From an uncultured Rhodopirellula sp. (GTDB lineage Bacteria > Planctomycetota > Planctomycetia > Pirellulales > Pirellulaceae): a stretch of DNA of 13,900 nucleotides. The notes under the pieces are model-generated. The model made no database searches. It worked only from the letters and a program-made list of their open reading frames with translations, and had not been told where the DNA came from. The stretch's first letter is position 1. Each line of letters starts with the position of its first letter. Location: the NCBI GenBank assembly GCA_913061385.1, contig CAJXTM010000017.1, forward strand, positions 1 through 13,900, written 5' to 3'. A program made the translations under genes and the position numbers. Shown here in pieces: positions 87 to 13,900 of the stretch.

Positions 87-1751
87 TCAGGCAGCGTTTT
101 GTTGTCGCTTCAGTTGCTTTCGAAGTCGCCGTCGCTGGGCTTTGCTCATTGAATTCCAGTCAATGTCGTCTGTCTCAACCAAATCCTCTTCGGATTCGTT
201 TGAATTCTGACGGGGGGCCGACTTGTTGCCGTCCGGATTACGTTGTTCCTCGCCATCGGCTTGGTGTGAGCCTGATGTGTCAATTTCTTCCGCTTGCTCA
301 GCGTCCTTTTTTCGACGCCAGCCCATCAGCCCTTTGCGTGATGCTTTTTCCTCCCTCTGCCCGGGTTCGGTACCTGAGGTGCCCTCGGCCTCGTTCATGT
401 CACGCGTTGCTGATTTCGATTTCGATCGGGATGATGAGCGTGGTTGTTTGTTTTCAGATTCTTCGGTGTGCGGAACTACTGCTTCCGATTCGGAGTCGAT
501 TGCTGCCTCGCTTGCAGAAGCCTTTGGGCCTCTTAGGCCGAACCAACGCCGCTTACCCTCTGGAGGATCTGTCTCCTGTGATTGATCGATATTTTCTTTG
601 ACGGCAGCTTGTTTAACCGCAGCTTGTTTAACCGCAGCTTGTTTCTCGGGTAGGGGAGCCAGCTTTTGCTTCTTTGCGGTACTACGTTTCTTGGTGCTTT
701 CCTGAGCGGTTTCCGTTGCCGGCTGTTCCGGATCTGTTTTTGATCTGTCGTGACTGTCTTTTTCGCTTCGTTGCCACCATCTTCGCTTCGTTGTGGTTTC
801 TGCAAACATCCCAACATTGGGTGTGGATGTTTCTTCATCGATCTTGTCTTCTGACTGTGGGAGACGCAGTCTAATTTGGTGCAGACGCTCCATGATGGAA
901 GGGCCTTCGATCTGCTTGACTTCCCTGTAAAGCACCCGCAGGTAGGTCAGCATGGCGATCAAGAGAGTCGTGCAGCCAAGCATTGGAGCTGTCGTTGCCA
1001 ATGTCCAGTATCCTGCTGATTCAATCTTTAAAATGTTCCATTGCACTGCTTCTGGAATTACGAACAGAATGCAGCTTGTGAGCATCAGAATCAACGCTGT
1101 TCGGCAATGCCAAAGTTCAGCAACCATTCTCAATGCAAGAACGGCTCCACCAAACGTGACTACAAGCCTTACCCAGTCATTTCCTGCCAAGGCGACACGC
1201 TTACCAAAGCCAGCGTCAATGATTGCGCCGCTCCAATCGACTAGTGATACCAGTGCATTAATGCTAGCCAAGACGCTGACAACGATGACAATACGCCAAA
1301 GGCGGTAATGGCCACCAAAGTCATCGTTGCGATAACGACGTAATTGATACGTCATCAAGGCAATGCCAGCAGTTACTGCCAACATTGCCACCATGCACCA
1401 CCTGCCGAAACTATCGGGCCGATCCAAACGTAACGGACGAGCGATCATTGGGCGGTTTGAAAGAGGCGTCCATGTGACCGCAGTGTAATGCGCGATGCAT
1501 AGTGTTGCCGTGAGTAGAAAGATGCTGCCGGTGACCAACAGCATGGATCTTAATCGAATGGGTACAAGCGAGAACCAGCGACCCCGAATTCGACGATGTA
1601 CACGCGAGCCGTATGCCATTTGTGGACACCTCGCTTCACGAAGCTTTTCTGCTTCGCGCCGACTCGCAGCTGACTTCGGTCCATTTTCAGCTTGCTGCGC
1701 CGAATAGAGAACGCGTCGTCGTCGGTCGTTAGTGCGGCGTCCTTGTTGCAT
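87..1751 (-). CDS. multi-pass membrane protein with long charged, low-complexity C-terminal tail
   Basis: I do not recognise a named family. With the ATG at 1751 the protein has 554 residues. A basic N-terminus of about 70 residues precedes six hydrophobic segments (about 70-92, 119-138, 153-171, 194-213, 218-236 and 250-274). A hydrophilic tail of about 280 residues follows, rich in Glu, Lys, Ser and Arg and probably disordered and cytoplasmic. The tail holds three KQAAV repeats (370-384), short basic-aromatic motifs KRRWW (322-326), KRRWF (400-404) and GWRRKK (477-482), and a very basic end (KAQRRRLRKQLKR). The frame stays open up to a TTG at 1820 (577 residues), but that TTG sits inside a perfect 10-bp-stem hairpin. 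The ATG at 1751 has AAGGAA upstream, at long spacing, so I prefer it. The DUF456 gene lies upstream on the same strand, 236 bp away. A role as membrane scaffold is only a guess. Confidence 0.75.
   Translation of the reverse strand: MQQGRRTNDRRRRVLYSAQQAENGPKSAASRREAEKLREARCPQMAYGSRVHRRIRGRWFSLVPIRLRSMLLVTGSIFLLTATLCIAHYTAVTWTPLSNRPMIARPLRLDRPDSFGRWCMVAMLAVTAGIALMTYQLRRYRNDDFGGHYRLWRIVIVVSVLASINALVSLVDWSGAIIDAGFGKRVALAGNDWVRLVVTFGGAVLALRMVAELWHCRTALILMLTSCILFVIPEAVQWNILKIESAGYWTLATTAPMLGCTTLLIAMLTYLRVLYREVKQIEGPSIMERLHQIRLRLPQSEDKIDEETSTPNVGMFAETTTKRRWWQRSEKDSHDRSKTDPEQPATETAQESTKKRSTAKKQKLAPLPEKQAAVKQAAVKQAAVKENIDQSQETDPPEGKRRWFGLRGPKASASEAAIDSESEAVVPHTEESENKQPRSSSRSKSKSATRDMNEAEGTSGTEPGQREEKASRKGLMGWRRKKDAEQAEEIDTSGSHQADGEEQRNPDGNKSAPRQNSNESEEDLVETDDIDWNSMSKAQRRRLRKQLKRQQNAA
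600..644 (-). repeat. in-frame 15-bp repeat encoding (KQAAV)x3
   Basis: Three consecutive 15-bp units encode KQAAV KQAAV KQAAV inside the tail of the membrane protein. The two inner units are identical at DNA level and the third differs by two bases. The unit is a multiple of three, so copy-number change would lengthen or shorten the tail without breaking the frame. It lies in a low-complexity stretch rich in Lys and Ala. Confidence 0.85.
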
Positions 1752-1815
1752 GATGCGATGGCATTCCTTTGCGTGTTTCAGATCACTCGCTTTGTTACTT
1801 GGGTCCCAATCATGG

Positions 1816-1838
1816 AGCAATGCTTGCCAAGCATTGCT
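1816..1838. other. perfect 10-bp inverted repeat at the 5' end of the membrane protein gene
   Basis: AGCAATGCTT (1816-1825) and AAGCATTGCT (1829-1838) are perfect reverse complements around a 3-nt loop. On the minus strand this lies about 65 bp upstream of the preferred ATG (1751) and swallows the alternative TTG start at 1820. It is also about 150 bp past the end of the DUF456 gene. No T-tract follows on either strand, so a classical intrinsic terminator is not supported. A leader hairpin, mRNA processing site or binding site for a dimeric protein are possible. Confidence 0.6.
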
Positions 1839-2665: not shown

Positions 2666-3009
2666 TTTGGGTGAGTTAAGTTTGGCCAGTTCGAGCGGGT
2701 TCGACAGAGATTGGAGGAATGCGTCATGGCTAGGTTACAACTTTTACCATCGTTTTTCATGATGATCGCCGTTTTTATGGGGCGTGTGGTGAACCCCAGT
2801 GGGGAGTAATTGCGTCGACAATGGCACTACCAGAGAGTGAACGCTATTAAGTCGTTTACAATTCGTTGATCTTGGCACTGAAAACGGGCAAGCGAATACC
2901 TGTAACCTGCTGAGAACGGCATTAAGATAGTTAAGCGTTTCCCCAATCATGCGAGCCTGATTGATCGTCCCCCGTTTTTTACCACTGGTAACCAGGGATC
3001 AAAGCGACC
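2666..3009. other. 344-bp divergent intergenic region, no gene seen
   Basis: This stretch separates the DUF456 start (minus) from the HNH start (plus), so it should hold both promoters. I see no convincing sigma70 hexamer pair, RNA gene or supported small ORF. It contains a short palindrome CTGGT-A-ACCAG at 2985-2995, just before the HNH start, and a TTAAG repeat spaced 9 bp at about 2923-2936; neither is strong enough to call. Confidence 0.5.
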
Positions 3010-3615
3010 ATGTCACAGAGTGTGTTAGAAACAAGTGTGCTGGTGTTGAATCGCTTTTACATGGCAGTTCGGGTGATCAACGTACGTCGCACTTTTACTT
3101 TGCTGTATCGCGACTGCGCCGAAGTGATTGAGAACGAGAATGGTCAGTACGCCAGTTACGACTTCGAAAGTTGGTGCGAACTTAGTCAGTTGGCTTGCCT
3201 AGAGAAGCACGACGGAGAAGAGTATCTCCGGGCGGTGAATTTTGAGTTACGAGTGCCACGGATTGTCCGGCTCACAAGATTCGACCGTATGCCGATTCAG
3301 TCTATTCGATTTAACCGCAAAAACTTGTTTGCACGGGATGACCATACATGCCAATACTGTGGACAGAATCAGCCTGCTCACAAACTAAGTTTGGATCATG
3401 TCGTCCCTCGTTCGCACGGCGGTCCGACGACTTGGGAAAACATTGTTTGCTGCTGTCTGCGGTGCAATAGTCGCAAGGGAGGTCGCACGCCCAAGCAAGC
3501 CCGTATGAAATTGCTGTCACGACCCCAAAAGCCTCGCGTCAATCCGATGTTGGTACAGTCAGCCGAAGATCCAAGGTATGCATGTTGGAAAACATTCTTA
3601 CCCGCCGCGGGATGA
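3010..3615 (+). CDS. HNH endonuclease
   Basis: The product has 201 residues and probably cuts or nicks DNA with a single metal in a beta-beta-alpha-metal fold. The N-terminal half (about 9-100) matches the conserved stretch VLVLNRxYMxVRVxNVRRxFxLLY seen in a widespread bacterial HNH subfamily. The HNH domain spans about 101-162: zinc-binding C114-x2-C117, catalytic-type D129-H130, then H136, N144 and the second zinc pair C149-x2-C152, followed by N153 and KGGRTP. All key residues are present and the length is usual for the subfamily. It stands alone, with no methyltransferase, specificity subunit or toxin partner beside it, so there is no sign of a restriction or defence system. Its biological role in these chromosomes is unknown. 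An AGGGA sits about 12 bases before the ATG. Confidence 0.9.
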   Translation: MSQSVLETSVLVLNRFYMAVRVINVRRTFTLLYRDCAEVIENENGQYASYDFESWCELSQLACLEKHDGEEYLRAVNFELRVPRIVRLTRFDRMPIQSIRFNRKNLFARDDHTCQYCGQNQPAHKLSLDHVVPRSHGGPTTWENIVCCCLRCNSRKGGRTPKQARMKLLSRPQKPRVNPMLVQSAEDPRYACWKTFLPAAG

Positions 3616-3809
3616 AGAGCCGCGATTCGTTCTGTTTCTGAATCGACCAACAGCTTGAACGATTGCATCGTCCTCAGTTGCGTTTTCTCGTAAGATCACC
3701 CAGCAATCACTCGTATTTGTCCACACCCGTATCTCAGCCAACCTAAAGCAAGTTGTTGGGTGTAAACATCAATGACTCTTCGCTGCTGCTTTGAGATTCA
3801 GAGACGAAG

Positions 3810-3837
3810 GTTCGTGTGCCCGCATCGGCACACGAAC
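3810..3837. terminator. candidate bidirectional terminator hairpin between HNH and ferredoxin
   Basis: GTTCGTGTGCC (3810-3820) pairs perfectly with GGCACACGAAC (3827-3837) around the loop CGCATC. It is the strongest perfect stem I found in the window and lies between convergent genes, where a shared terminator is expected. Neither side has a run of T, so it is either a non-canonical terminator or another structured element. Confidence 0.5.
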
Positions 3838-3852
3838 GAGTCAGCCGCCGGT

Positions 3853-3909
3853 GTCGCTTGGTCTCACCCATTTCGGGGTGCTGCGAGCAGCGAGGCGCGA
3901 GACAGCGAC
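3853..3909. other. self-complementary block, possible branched structure
   Basis: The outer arms GTCGC (3853-3857) plus GTCTC (3861-3865) can pair with GAGAC (3899-3903) plus GCGAC (3905-3909). Inside, CACCC (3865-3869) can pair with GGGTG (3876-3880), and GCTG (3880-3883) with CAGC (3888-3891). A GCGAG motif also recurs every 7 bp at 3883, 3890 and 3897. It may be a REP-like intergenic element, the 3' end of a structured transcript, or chance; the hairpin next to it raises the odds that it is real. Confidence 0.35.
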
Positions 3910-3919
3910 GAAAGACAGA

Positions 3920-4204
3920 TCAACTGTCGGCCAAAGGCTCTTTCTTTTCGGTCAGGACATCGCACTCACCTGATTCGGACTTTGTCGCATTCAGTTCGAG
4001 ATAACTTTTCCATTCCTCTGGGAGGTTGTCCTCGTGGAAAATCGCTTCCACTGGGCATTCCGGAACGCAAGCTTCACAGTCAATGCACTCTTCCGGATGA
4101 ATGTAGAGCATTTGATCGCCTTCGTAGAAGCATTCCACGGGGCATACGACCACGCAATCGGTGTATTTGCATCCTGAGCAGGGCTCAGCTACGACGTGAG
4201 TCAT
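3920..4204 (-). CDS. fdxA: 7Fe ferredoxin ([3Fe-4S][4Fe-4S], FdxA type)
   Basis: This is a 94-residue soluble electron carrier. The cysteine pattern matches the Azotobacter FdI/FdxA class: C9, C17 and C50 would bind the [3Fe-4S] cluster, and C21, C40, C43 and C46 the [4Fe-4S] cluster. C12 and C25 are the extra cysteines also found in that class. The stretches [18 protein letters not shown] and [16 protein letters not shown] are hallmark segments. A C-terminal tail of about 40 residues follows, as in FdxA proteins, here acidic and polar. The ATG start is supported by AAAGG eight bases upstream on the minus strand. The gene is monocistronic and divergent from the methyltransferase gene, with 296 bp between them. 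The redox partner cannot be told from this window. Confidence 0.93.
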
Positions 4205-5776: not shown

Positions 5777-5830
5777 AGGACGGATTCTTATCGAGCCTCT
5801 TCGCAGACTGTCCCAACCGTGGAGTGCCCT

Positions 5831-6496
5831 ATGTCGGGCGTAACGCTAAAAATCCTTCATGGAGCCGACCGTGGCAAGATCTATGAAGATCTTGCTCCGC
5901 CCTTAACCATTGGGCGCGAAGAAGGTAACGAGATCCAACTGAATGACGAGCGAGTTAGCCGCTGTCATTTTAAAGTGCAGCGAGACAATGATCGTCTTGT
6001 TTTGACCGATCTCGACAGCACCAATGGCACGAAGGTTAATGGTGTCGAGTGTCAATTAAAGATTTTGCGACACGGTGACCTGATTTCGGTTGGACGCAGC
6101 TTAATGCTCGTTGGGTCTGAAGCTCAGATTGCAGCCCGTCTTGCCGCGATGGGAAATGAGAATCCGACAGTCAGTCGGGACGAACAACTTGGTGAAGGGG
6201 CGATCTCGCTCAATTTGGGTGCCGAGCCGAAGTCACCCCATCCCGCAGAAATCATTCAGATTCAGGAAGTGCCGGATATTCCTGCGGACTTATCACCGGG
6301 CCAAAAAGCCCAGTTGTGTGAAATTCTTGACTATTTGCAGTCTCGGCTGAAACGTTTAATCGACGCAGCGAGAACAGATGAAAATAGCCAAGAAGTAGTT
6401 TTGAAAATGGCGTCTTGGCAGCGAATGTTGGATACGCAGTCCAAGCTCGCAAACATGGCCCGCCAAATTGCAGATCCCGATTGGCCAGATTCTTAG
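5831..6496 (+). CDS. FHA domain protein (phosphothreonine reader)
   Basis: The product has 221 residues, with an FHA domain at about 4-95. The signature residues are present: G28-R29, S43-R44-x-H46 and T64-N65-G66 with N70-G71. These are the residues that contact phosphothreonine in FHA domains, so binding looks intact. A polar linker (about 100-150) leads to a C-terminal helical segment (about 152-215) with no recognised domain. There is no signal peptide or membrane segment, so it should be cytoplasmic. I chose the ATG at 5831 because GGAG stands 8 bases before it; a GTG at 5819 would add four residues. Two TATAAT boxes precede the gene. The next gene is a Ser/Thr kinase, the enzyme class that makes FHA ligands, so this is a plausible adaptor or output protein for that kinase. 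That partnership is inference. Confidence 0.9.
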   Translation: MSGVTLKILHGADRGKIYEDLAPPLTIGREEGNEIQLNDERVSRCHFKVQRDNDRLVLTDLDSTNGTKVNGVECQLKILRHGDLISVGRSLMLVGSEAQIAARLAAMGNENPTVSRDEQLGEGAISLNLGAEPKSPHPAEIIQIQEVPDIPADLSPGQKAQLCEILDYLQSRLKRLIDAARTDENSQEVVLKMASWQRMLDTQSKLANMARQIADPDWPDS

Positions 6497-6775: not shown

Positions 6776-8339
6776 ATGCACGGATCGATTTGCTGCATCG
6801 TTAAGAAGTTTGTCGATACAAATCATGGTCCAGAGGCCTGGGACGCTATTTTAGAACAGGCTGGCCACAAGGGTTTGGTGCTTTCCCCGATCGGTACGTA
6901 TCCCGACGAGGCGGTGTTTGCCCTGTTGGGTGCTGGGTGCTGGGTGTGAGTTGTTGCAGGTGGAATTAGACGACCTGCTGCGGACGGTGGGACGCTTTGC
7001 CGGACCAGAGTTGATTGGTTTTGCGAACACGATGTTGCATCCGGAGTGGAAGACGTTCGAGTTGCTTGCCAACGTCGAGTCATTGATTCACCGAACTATC
7101 CGGATGCAGAATCCGACTGCACAGCCAGCCAATATTCAAGCTTTTCGGTTGAGTGAAAATGAGGCTCATGTCGTCTACTCCTCACGCCGCGGCCTTTGCA
7201 CCCTTGCTCACGGCATCATCGAGGGTGTTGCCGATTTCTACAAGGAAAATATAACCATTCGCGAAGTTACTTGTGCGAAGCAGGGGCATCCCTTCTGCAC
7301 ATTTGAGGCGAAGCGAGTTGTTGTTCAAGACGAGATTACAGAAGGTAAAAGTATCGTTATTGAACCGACTGTCACTTCTGAAAGTTTCCAAGAAACGTTC
7401 GTTGCGTCTGATAGCGTGGGCGATTCAAGTGCTGCATCAAATTCAAGCAGTTTCGATTGGTTTCCAGCCAACGCTGCTGCAAGTCGAGAAGGTTCGGGAA
7501 TCCGAGGTTCCCAAAAAAATGTCATTCCGTTTCCCAAACGGCTCGGTCGTTATGCGATTCAAGAGATCATCGGCGTTGGTGGAATGGGTGTTGTCTACCG
7601 GGGGACGGACGATGTTCTCAATCGAGTTGTCGCGATCAAAACACTGAAGTCGGTCAAGATTGGACGGGAGTTGGCTGACCCTTTTATTGAAGAAGCCCGC
7701 GCGATGGCGAGATTATCCCATGAAAATGTCGTGCGTGTTTACGACGTGGGTGAAATTGATGGCCGTCCCTTTTTCGTGATGGAATATCTGACCGGGCAAG
7801 CTCTTTCAAAACGCATCCGACAGGGGCAGGTTTCGCTTCAGCTGGGGGCGGAACTCTTCAAGAAAATTTTGCAGGGTGTGAATGCCGTGCATAAAATCGG
7901 ACTCGTGCACCGTGATATCAAACCCGACAATATCATGTTGAGTCTCGATTCACGGAAATGCCATTTGCTTGATTTTGGATTGGCTGATGAGTTGTGTGTG
8001 AAACGCGATGTTAGTAAGCGTTTGAGCGGTACGCCGGGGTTCATCGCCCCTGAGCGATTGCGTGGATATCCTGCTGACTACAAGAGTGACTTTTTTAGCC
8101 TCGGATGTGTGGCCTATGAAATCTTCAGCGGCAGACGTGCATTTGACAGTGACAGCACCCAGGCTGTAATCAGTTCCATGCAGCGTTTTGAACCTCGGGA
8201 ATCGGATTGGCGAGATACACCTGATGAGCTTCGTAAGTTAATTGTCAGCATGATGCATATCGACGCATCAGAACGCATGACTGATTATGAGGAAATTGAC
8301 AATGTTCTCGATGCAATGTTGATTCAGCTGTCAAAGTGA
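6776..8339 (+). CDS. H-NOX haem sensor / Ser-Thr protein kinase fusion, frameshifted in this sequence
   Basis: The gene is in two frames. ATG 6776 to TGA 6947-6949 encodes the start of an H-NOX (haem NO/oxygen binding) domain (MHGSICCIVKKFV...YPDEAVFALLGAGC). The rest, to 8339, is open in the +1 frame. Deleting one 7-bp GGGTGCT unit at 6928-6941 joins them into a 518-residue protein. In that numbering H103 is the expected proximal haem ligand and Y132-x-S134-x-R136 the propionate-binding motif, both at canonical positions and spacing. The GIIEG run (144-148) and EITI-like C-terminal strand region also fit. The linker spans about 182-254. A complete Hanks-type kinase covers about 255-515: glycine loop G264-x-G266-x-x-G269, K286, E304, H376-R-D378-x-K380, N383, D397-F-G399, TPG and A422-P-E424. 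There is no membrane segment, so it should be cytosolic, unlike many bacterial kinases. The likely role is phosphorylation controlled by NO or another haem ligand. Without repair only the fragment downstream of the repeat could be made. Confidence 0.85.
6928..6947 (+). repeat. 7-bp tandem repeat causing the kinase frameshift
   Basis: GGGTGCT at 6928-6934 is repeated at 6935-6941 and followed by a partial third copy GGGTGT (6942-6947). With one unit fewer the reading frame is continuous and reads LLGAGCELLQ, as expected for an H-NOX domain. As written, the first frame stops at the TGA at 6947-6949. A gain of one unit by slipped-strand mispairing, or an assembly error in the repeat, explains the break. 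Confidence 0.85.
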
Positions 8340-8677: not shown

Positions 8678-10582
8678 ATGCTTGCCCGAACTTGTTGTGT
8701 TGTGGTTCTTCTCGTTGCTTGCTTTGCCCAAGTGAGTGGTGAGTCGACGAAACCGTTTGGATCTGATTTTCCACGGCTTGATTCAGATGCAGTCGGTGAA
8801 TGGTGGAAAACAAAAAGCAAGGGCGGTGGTGGACCGCGTTTGATGGTCCCTCGAGATGAAGTGCTTGGATTTGCGGTCTACGCCGTTGCGAATGGCACTT
8901 TGAAGCTGACTGCTCAATTATTTCCCCTGCTCCCTGATGAGTCGCGAGAAGTGGTCTTGGAAGTGCGTCCAGTGGGTGATGATGCTTGGCAGGAAATCGC
9001 TGTTGAAAAAGTGCTGTATCCAGGGTGGTCCGCACACTTTCGCATCAAGGATTGGGATGTGACTCGCGATTTTCAGTATCGCTTAAGTCATGGAGAAAAA
9101 GCAACATTCGAGGGCCTGATACGCAAAGATCCGATCGACAAAGAAACGATCGTGGTCGGCTCGCTTTCCTGCAACAGCAGCCGGACGCCTGGACCTCGAC
9201 CGCGAATGGTTGAAAATCTGATCAAGCAGGATCCGGACCTCTTATTCTTCGCAGGTGATCAGTCATATCATCACACCCAGCATACATTTGGGTGGCTTGA
9301 GTTTGGTATGCAATTTCGAGATGTCATGAAGGATCGCCCCACCATCACGATCCCAGATGATCATGATGTCGGGCAAGCCAATATTTGGGGCGAGGACGGC
9401 AAGAAGGCGCGGACTCCAGCTGGCCCAGCAGGAGGCTTTTTTTACCCTGCTGAATACGTCAACATGGTTCAGCGATGTCAGACTTGGCATCTGCCAGATC
9501 CATTTGACGCAACACCGATTGAACGCGGGATTGGCGTTTACTACACCAATTTACTGCTGGGTGGAATTGATTTTGCCATTCTCGAGGACCGCAAGTTCAA
9601 GAGTGGACCTCAAGGGAAAATTCCGAAGATGGGGCCACGCCCCGACCATATTAATGACCCTGCTTATGACCGCGCTTCGGTCGACCTTCCACAATTGAAA
9701 CTGCTTGGTGACCGCCAACTGCAGTTTTTAGATCAGTGGACCGATGATTGGACTGGCGCCGATATGAAAGCAGTGTTGAGCCAGACCGCTTTTTGTGGTG
9801 CTGTGCATCTTCACGGTAGTCCTTCCAATAGGCTGTTGGCTGATCTTGATTGCAACGGATGGCCACAAACCGGAAGACAAGTGGCGTTGGAGAGAGTACG
9901 TCGGGTGTGGGCACCGCACTTGTGTGGGGATCAGCACCTGGCGGTTCTGGTGCAGCATGGTCTCGAAACAGCATCCGATGGTCCCTACGCATTCACCTCT
10001 CCTGCCATCGTGAATACTATTTACGGTCGCTGGTGGCATCCCGAAGACGAGCAGCCGGGTGAAAATCCGGTAGCAGATAGTCCCCTGCGATGGACGGGAG
10101 AATACGAGGATGGCTTGGGGAACTTAATCCGTATGTTGGCATATGCGAATCCGCAGGATCGCAAAGATGAAACCCAGCGTGCAGACGGGCATGGGATTGT
10201 GCGGTTTAACAAGAAAGACCAGACAATCACATTTGAGTGTTGGTCACGGTTTGCTGACGTGGACGACGGTGATGTAGCTCAATTTCCCGGCTGGCCTGTG
10301 ACAATCCGTAGAAGCCAAAACGATGGTCGAACAGTAGCAGGTTACTTGCCCGAACTACAATTCACAGGCTCAAAGTCACCCGTCGTTAAGGTCATTCGTG
10401 AACGGGACGGCGAGGTGCTTTACAGTGTTCGTGTGCAGGGTGACCGTTTTCGACCAGCTGTCTATGAGTCAGGTAAGTACACCATCAAACTAGGCACGGA
10501 TCGACCCGATCAGAAAACCATGAAAGGGGTCACCAGTGGATCGATGACGGATCAACGCATTGAGCAGATCAATTTGCCTTAA
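8678..10582 (+). CDS. secreted PhoD-like metallophosphatase
   Basis: The product has 634 residues. An N-terminal signal peptide (hydrophobic core about 8-17, likely cleavage after SG at 20-21) directs export. An N-terminal beta domain of about 55-150 residues precedes the PhoD-type metallophosphatase domain at about 157-480. Motifs in order are GSLSCNSS (161-168), F-A-GDQSY (191-197), PDDHD (226-230), LEDRKF (302-307), LGDRQLQFL (343-351) and C-GDQH (416-420). These parallel the PhoD metal and substrate motifs, where classical members have GDxIY, WDDHE and GDxH. PhoD enzymes release phosphate from phosphomonoesters and diesters and use Ca and Fe ions. The start is supported by GGAG seven bases upstream. 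The gene is monocistronic and converges on the recombinase gene with a 26-bp gap. The substrate is uncertain because the planctomycete-type motifs are variants. Confidence 0.85.
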   Translation: MLARTCCVVVLLVACFAQVSGESTKPFGSDFPRLDSDAVGEWWKTKSKGGGGPRLMVPRDEVLGFAVYAVANGTLKLTAQLFPLLPDESREVVLEVRPVGDDAWQEIAVEKVLYPGWSAHFRIKDWDVTRDFQYRLSHGEKATFEGLIRKDPIDKETIVVGSLSCNSSRTPGPRPRMVENLIKQDPDLLFFAGDQSYHHTQHTFGWLEFGMQFRDVMKDRPTITIPDDHDVGQANIWGEDGKKARTPAGPAGGFFYPAEYVNMVQRCQTWHLPDPFDATPIERGIGVYYTNLLLGGIDFAILEDRKFKSGPQGKIPKMGPRPDHINDPAYDRASVDLPQLKLLGDRQLQFLDQWTDDWTGADMKAVLSQTAFCGAVHLHGSPSNRLLADLDCNGWPQTGRQVALERVRRVWAPHLCGDQHLAVLVQHGLETASDGPYAFTSPAIVNTIYGRWWHPEDEQPGENPVADSPLRWTGEYEDGLGNLIRMLAYANPQDRKDETQRADGHGIVRFNKKDQTITFECWSRFADVDDGDVAQFPGWPVTIRRSQNDGRTVAGYLPELQFTGSKSPVVKVIRERDGEVLYSVRVQGDRFRPAVYESGKYTIKLGTDRPDQKTMKGVTSGSMTDQRIEQINLP

Positions 10583-13877: not shown

Positions 13878-13900
13878 CTGTCTCTTATACACATCTGACG
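13878..13900. other. Nextera transposase adapter (sequencing artefact)
   Basis: CTGTCTCTTATACACATCT at 13878-13896 is the Nextera/Tn5 mosaic-end sequence as read through at the 3' end of short inserts. It is followed by GACG, the next bases of the standard read-through adapter. All 23 bases match. This is untrimmed library adapter carried into the contig end, not a biological Tn5 end. Confidence 0.97.

Follow-up and report, generated by a model that had tools for sequence, protein, structure and literature searches.

A planctomycete gene that joins an H-NOX sensor domain to a Ser/Thr kinase in a single chain

The stretch of DNA considered here (the window) is the 13,900-nucleotide contig CAJXTM010000017.1 of an uncultured Rhodopirellula species, contig 17 of an assembly (GCA_913061385.1, here G000) of 5.7 Mb in 1197 contigs, 77.7% complete. 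Near its middle lies a gene, split by a frame change into two open reading frames (ORF1 and ORF2, Table 1), that encodes an H-NOX domain, a haem-type sensor domain related to the nitric oxide (NO) receptor of animals, followed by a Ser/Thr kinase. ORF1 matches positions 2-52 of the HNOB profile (32.1 bits), and ORF2 matches HNOB 51-162 (61.3 bits) and Pkinase (178.6 bits), all above the Pfam cut-offs. A database protein of 518 residues, P0001, is identical to ORF1 over its first 55 residues and to ORF2 over its last 468, so the two frames cover the whole of it. The original prediction, made from the letters of the window, was of a full H-NOX domain after frame repair, with an MHG start, H103, Y132, S134 and R136, joined to a complete Hanks-type kinase. 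P0001 bears this out. It matches HNOB (PF07700) over residues 3-160 (103.2 bits against a cut-off of 25.5, E 1.7e-29) and Pkinase over residues 257-500 (178.3 bits, likewise above its cut-off), all the named residues are where they were said to be, and the kinase signature (catalytic Lys, HRD Asp, DFG Asp) is present.

Fold searches with a model of the whole protein listed kinases only, so the H-NOX domain was folded separately, and alone it is predicted to take the H-NOX fold. A membrane segment had been held to be absent, and none was found: the highest 19-residue Kyte-Doolittle mean in P0001 is 1.15 (windows reach 1.6 in four of 97 homologues, P0001 not among them). Profile searches gave no match to PASTA repeats. 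The claim that the two domains are directly joined holds insofar as they share a chain but not as regards contact, for residues 182-247 are predicted with low confidence (predicted local distance difference test, pLDDT, below 50) and are probably a disordered linker. There the ratio of nonsynonymous to synonymous substitution (dN/dS) is 0.12-0.35, as against 0.02-0.06 in the domains, rough values since synonymous sites are near saturation. In one cytoplasmic chain, then, an H-NOX domain at the N-terminus is followed by a flexible linker of about 66 residues and by a PknB-like Ser/Thr kinase.

Table 1. Features of the H-NOX-kinase gene, its neighbours and two related loci (window positions unless a genome is named; residue numbers are those of P0001)
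Feature	Position	Strand	Remarks
ORF1	6776..6949	+	57 residues; MHG start and first third of H-NOX domain; ends at stop caused by frame change
ORF2	6918..8339	+	473 residues; remainder of H-NOX, linker and kinase; frame open from 6855
7-base tandem repeat	6928..6946	+	two full GGGTGCT copies plus GGGTG; site of frame change
H-NOX domain	6776..7316	+	residues 1-178; Pfam match and predicted fold
Proximal haem histidine	7089..7091	+	H103 codon
Haem-propionate motif	7176..7190	+	Y132-x-S134-x-R136
Three cysteines	7197..7298	+	C139 (7197-7199), C164 (7272-7274), C172 (7296-7298); numbers as in Shewanella H-NOX zinc cysteines
Residue 161	7263..7265	+	Glu
Linker	7326..7523	+	residues 182-247; less constrained than both domains
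Ser/Thr kinase domain	7551..8282	+	residues 257-500; K286, E304, D378, D397, activation-loop T417
FHA protein gene	5819..6496		found across the order
PhoD-like phosphatase gene	8678..10582		22.2 bits, below Pfam cut-off of 27
L191	G612:C1 1080..2765	-	H-NOX-like domain and Ser/Thr kinase; same genome as decayed G612 copy
L150	G166:C1 2996..4975	-	H-NOX-like domain, Ser/Thr kinase and tetratricopeptide repeats

Three protein searches gathered 97 homologues by likeness to the H-NOX part, and 94 of these are fusions of HNOB with Pkinase (50/51, 7/7 and 37/39 in the respective searches). The remaining three comprise P0042, in which the kinase part is broken, and a pair of proteins combining H-NOX with PilZ. 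The catalytic Lys and both Asp are found in 94/94 fusions. H103 is present in all 96 homologues that cover the site, and Y132, S134 and R136 in all 97; since these residues of the haem pocket are invariant, fusions of the P0001 type likely bind haem, to judge by sequence. Pro115 is kept in 95 of the 97, and residue 141 is Leu in 92, Phe in two, Val in two, Gly in one and Tyr in none. C139, C164 and C172 are also invariant (97/97). Stand-alone planctomycete H-NOX domains, by comparison, largely retain the haem residues, but the full set of cysteines is found in just 3 of 23 rows of the alignment (23 of 24 picked from the searches, with L115, L135, L137-L141 and unnumbered loci left out). Two stand-alone domains, L145 (G205) and L146 (G313), score close to the fused class, and no kinase motif was flagged in neighbouring open reading frames of at least 120 residues. 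The two PilZ proteins (P0095 and P0097, the latter named as Magnetococcales) are single chains of a little-known H-NOX architecture.

The gene occurs in 13 of 22 genomes of the genus and, counting by match scores, in 37 of 241 of the family. In 31 of those 37 there is an open frame of at least 500 residues, and in every one of these the kinase was read or matched; two more are interrupted by the assembly (a run of N in G004, contig ends in G532). Among the loci read in this family survey, L212 and L216 lack a VAIK pattern. A sample of the phylum (392 genomes, each place with an open frame of at least 450 being read, by a pattern scan that reaches close relatives only) gave kinase fusions in G000 and, in three copies, G103, and a haem-less one in G166. 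Every one of the 19 named loci located in the GTDB collection belongs to a planctomycete record. The architecture thus recurs in planctomycetes, as had been proposed for checking. (G103, at 12.3 Mb, has 151 kinase matches, from 1017 first-look candidates, 150 of them scored.) The fusion architecture can be seen already in precomputed Pfam annotation and so is uncharacterised rather than hidden. It had been called little studied, and searches of the open-access literature, a scope that leaves subscription papers mostly outside, turned up no report of it. Bacterial H-NOX outputs described in excerpts of PMC8738867 and PMC8846402, on which (with excerpts of PMC7108781) we draw throughout, are histidine kinases, enzymes of cyclic-di-GMP metabolism and chemoreceptors. 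This, then, is a real, conserved and uncharacterised receptor-kinase architecture, made of two domains that are well known singly.

What might such a protein do? We think it probable that the gene product is a single-chain Ser/Thr kinase of the cytoplasm under the control of haem and NO, with a possible redox input from a zinc-cysteine site. Haem would be bound through H103, in a pocket where Leu at residue 141 would favour NO over oxygen; this residue presumably corresponds to Tyr140, which stabilises oxygen in Thermoanaerobacter H-NOX (the numbering being offset by one). Binding of NO at an H-NOX haem displaces the haem and the proximal His and shifts the subdomains (PMC8846402, PMC7108781). 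A ligand-driven shift of this kind could alter autophosphorylation of the attached kinase, through a change in its autoinhibition or its pairing across the flexible linker, and the kinase would in turn phosphorylate cytoplasmic substrates. The three cysteines may hold a zinc, and a second, redox input through them is plausible. The direction of the switch could go either way. In soluble guanylate cyclase, NO-bound H-NOX activates. In Shewanella, it inhibits its histidine kinase (PMC8846402), and by analogy NO may switch the kinase considered here either on or off.

One may ask whether the gene functions at all in this organism. It is split at the junction GGGTGCTGGGTGCTGGGTG, which occurs once in the window. 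On one reading, the lineage can do without the gene and has lost it several times, and the copy in this organism is one such loss, a young pseudogene. Besides the broken frame, there are decayed copies in three genomes of the family (G006, G612 and G492), the gene is absent from 9 of the 22 genus genomes, and G000 holds no second copy of the split stretch. However, an identical and intact protein, P0001, exists, representing seven member sequences, the longest contig among them being 195,718 bases as against 13,900 here. Moreover, the gene shows no further break downstream, and dN/dS after the break is 0.05-0.08 relative to five orthologues (again a rough value, with synonymous sites near saturation). 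The assembly itself still contains adapter: a 34-base Nextera adapter occurs in it in 659 exact copies (the reversed control gives 0), and adapter sequence stands also at 13878-13896, in the last bases of the contig (13878-13900). G000 was therefore assembled from untrimmed reads, and since P0001 is intact on another contig, the frame break is possibly an assembly error. The extra 7-base unit that splits the window's copy may be such an error or a recent real allele, and decay in this organism is possible but rather unlikely. Phase variation at the repeat was considered as well and is unsupported; six orthologues from genus-mates have an unbroken frame at this place and lack the extra 7 bases.

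Granting a working protein, the cysteines may be weighed as the principal sensor, the domain being mainly an oxidant sensor through a zinc site of C139, C164, C172 and residue 161, with haem structural or secondary. The invariance of the cysteines in the homologues, set against their rarity in stand-alone domains, fits such a role. So does the precedent of Shewanella H-NOX, whose zinc ligands are Cys139, His161, Cys164 and Cys172 (PMC7108781), and of haem-free Vibrio cholerae H-NOX, which responds to oxidation at the zinc site (PMC7108781, PMC8738867), and the C-terminal part of the domain matches V4R above cut-off and, weakly, an MsvR family model. But H103, Y132, S134 and R136 show no more variation than the cysteines do, and a haem-independent sensor would have no need of them. 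Also, residue 161 is Glu in 69 of the 97 homologues, Gln in 13, His in six, Lys in six and Asp in three. The fourth ligand is thus unlike that of described zinc sites, where it is His or Gln, residues found here in 19 of the 97 and not in P0001. We regard a mainly cysteine-based sensor as unlikely. A switch in which the haem binds O2 or carbon monoxide rather than NO seems very unlikely. The H-NOX domains of obligate anaerobes do bind O2 (PMC8738867), and a search, confined to copper nitrite reductase, found no accompanying NO-making gene. O2-binding H-NOX domains, however, require a distal Tyr (PMC8738867), whereas residue 141 is never Tyr in the 97 homologues, an argument that leans on the offset numbering mentioned above.

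Several observations weigh against control of the kinase by haem and NO. No neighbouring gene is conserved across lineages in the carrier loci compared, and none of those linked is related to NO; copper nitrite reductase, the one NO enzyme searched for, scores above cut-off in 0 of 22 genus genomes. Three of the 37 family carriers are decayed, besides the split copy of the window. Two H-NOX-like kinases, L191 and L150, score above the HNOB cut-off but lack the proximal His and YxSxR, the kinase of L191 falling inside the main clade of fusions and that of L150 outside. Finally, the homologues, chosen by similarity to the H-NOX part, form a set that favours conserved members.

The history of the fusion is probably more complicated than a single event. 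In the H-NOX tree (23 stand-alone rows, P0042 and P0051 left out, with long-branch warnings), the fused domains group together with the PilZ pair and a single stand-alone domain (support 95/94), and the remaining stand-alones lie outside. The kinase tree took in 32 of the 94 fusions and 22 of 30 loci from the scan of G103 kinases, and in it the two G103 fusions used fall among G103's own kinases. Forcing all fusions into one clade costs 69 log units (p value of the approximately unbiased test, p-AU, 1.1e-6, the groups having been named after the tree was seen); one clade without the G103 pair is not rejected (p-AU 0.175). Since a single kinase clade is rejected, the joining probably occurred at least twice, or else the kinase part was exchanged. 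Over pairs of the 32 fusions, H-NOX and kinase identities correlate (Pearson 0.91, uncorrected for kinship). We tentatively propose that planctomycetes may possess a separate class of three-cysteine H-NOX domains, joined at least twice to Ser/Thr kinases to give one-component receptors that pass gas and redox signals directly to protein phosphorylation, a bacterial counterpart of soluble guanylate cyclase with a kinase output; some members would later have lost their haem site and may sense something else.

The surroundings of the gene change from one lineage to another. In seven close relatives (the G006 copy decayed), it lies between the FHA and PhoD-like genes where the contig extends (FHA in six, PhoD in six). 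At 14 other loci of the genus, those two genes adjoin directly in eight, the PhoD-like gene is absent in five, and the contig ends in one; the PhoD-like gene thus adjoins the FHA gene in many, not all, genus-mates. Eight more distant carriers have none of the window's neighbours in common. Hence the kinase gene relocates or disappears whole and has no fixed partner. The upstream FHA gene was considered as a partner and rejected: it adjoins the kinase gene only in close kin of the window, is present in 40/40 relatives searched and, where the kinase sits elsewhere, adjoins the PhoD-like gene in four of five loci. In one genus clade, the kinase gene stands beside a TauE/SafE gene (5/5 loci) and an M50 peptidase gene (4/5), neighbours that were grouped by clustering and of which a single member per cluster was scanned. 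A conserved upstream control site was not found in the intergenic DNA of six species, which aligns poorly except in the start region. Elsewhere in the window, positions 87-1820 (minus strand) encode a protein of 577 residues whose C-terminal part is charged and rich in repeats and which has no match in NCBIfam. Another contig of G000 carries a stand-alone H-NOX gene (L048, G000:C597, 2187-2735) directly before a gene for a GAF-histidine kinase (2736-4001); the end of this contig resembles translated adapter.

Beyond the original prediction, then, lie the three-cysteine site, the linker, the probably plural origin, the decayed copies and the haem-less variants. If the protein is indeed a soluble H-NOX-Ser/Thr kinase, ligand, haem state and phosphorylation could be measured together in one protein, and an input would be named for a bacterial Hanks-type kinase, a class often without one. 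The repeated joining and the haem-less relatives offer natural variants for testing how H-NOX controls an output.

Among known systems, HnoX/HnoK of Shewanella oneidensis and Vibrio cholerae likewise has the H-NOX fold, the proximal His, YxSxR, three zinc cysteines at equal numbers and a kinase output. There, however, the sensor is a separate protein that targets a histidine kinase and phosphorelay (PMC8846402), while P0001 is one chain with Pkinase; the L048 pair fits the two-gene arrangement. Relative to zinc-cysteine H-NOX domains of the Shewanella/Vibrio type, Cys139, Cys164 and Cys172 are present but not His or Gln at 161. Chemoreceptors of obligate anaerobes are likewise one-chain H-NOX receptors, but they are membrane-bound and bind O2 with a distal Tyr (PMC8738867), and P0001 has neither a membrane stretch nor Tyr at 141. 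Unlike PknB/PknA and the PASTA kinases (PknB/Stk1), P0001 has no membrane segment or PASTA repeats, and its sensor is cytoplasmic and N-terminal. The beta subunit of soluble guanylate cyclase, too, carries an N-terminal H-NOX domain in the chain of an enzyme, and the predicted fold matches, but its output is a cyclase, and the Pfam listing of P0001 has neither HNOBA nor a guanylate cyclase domain.
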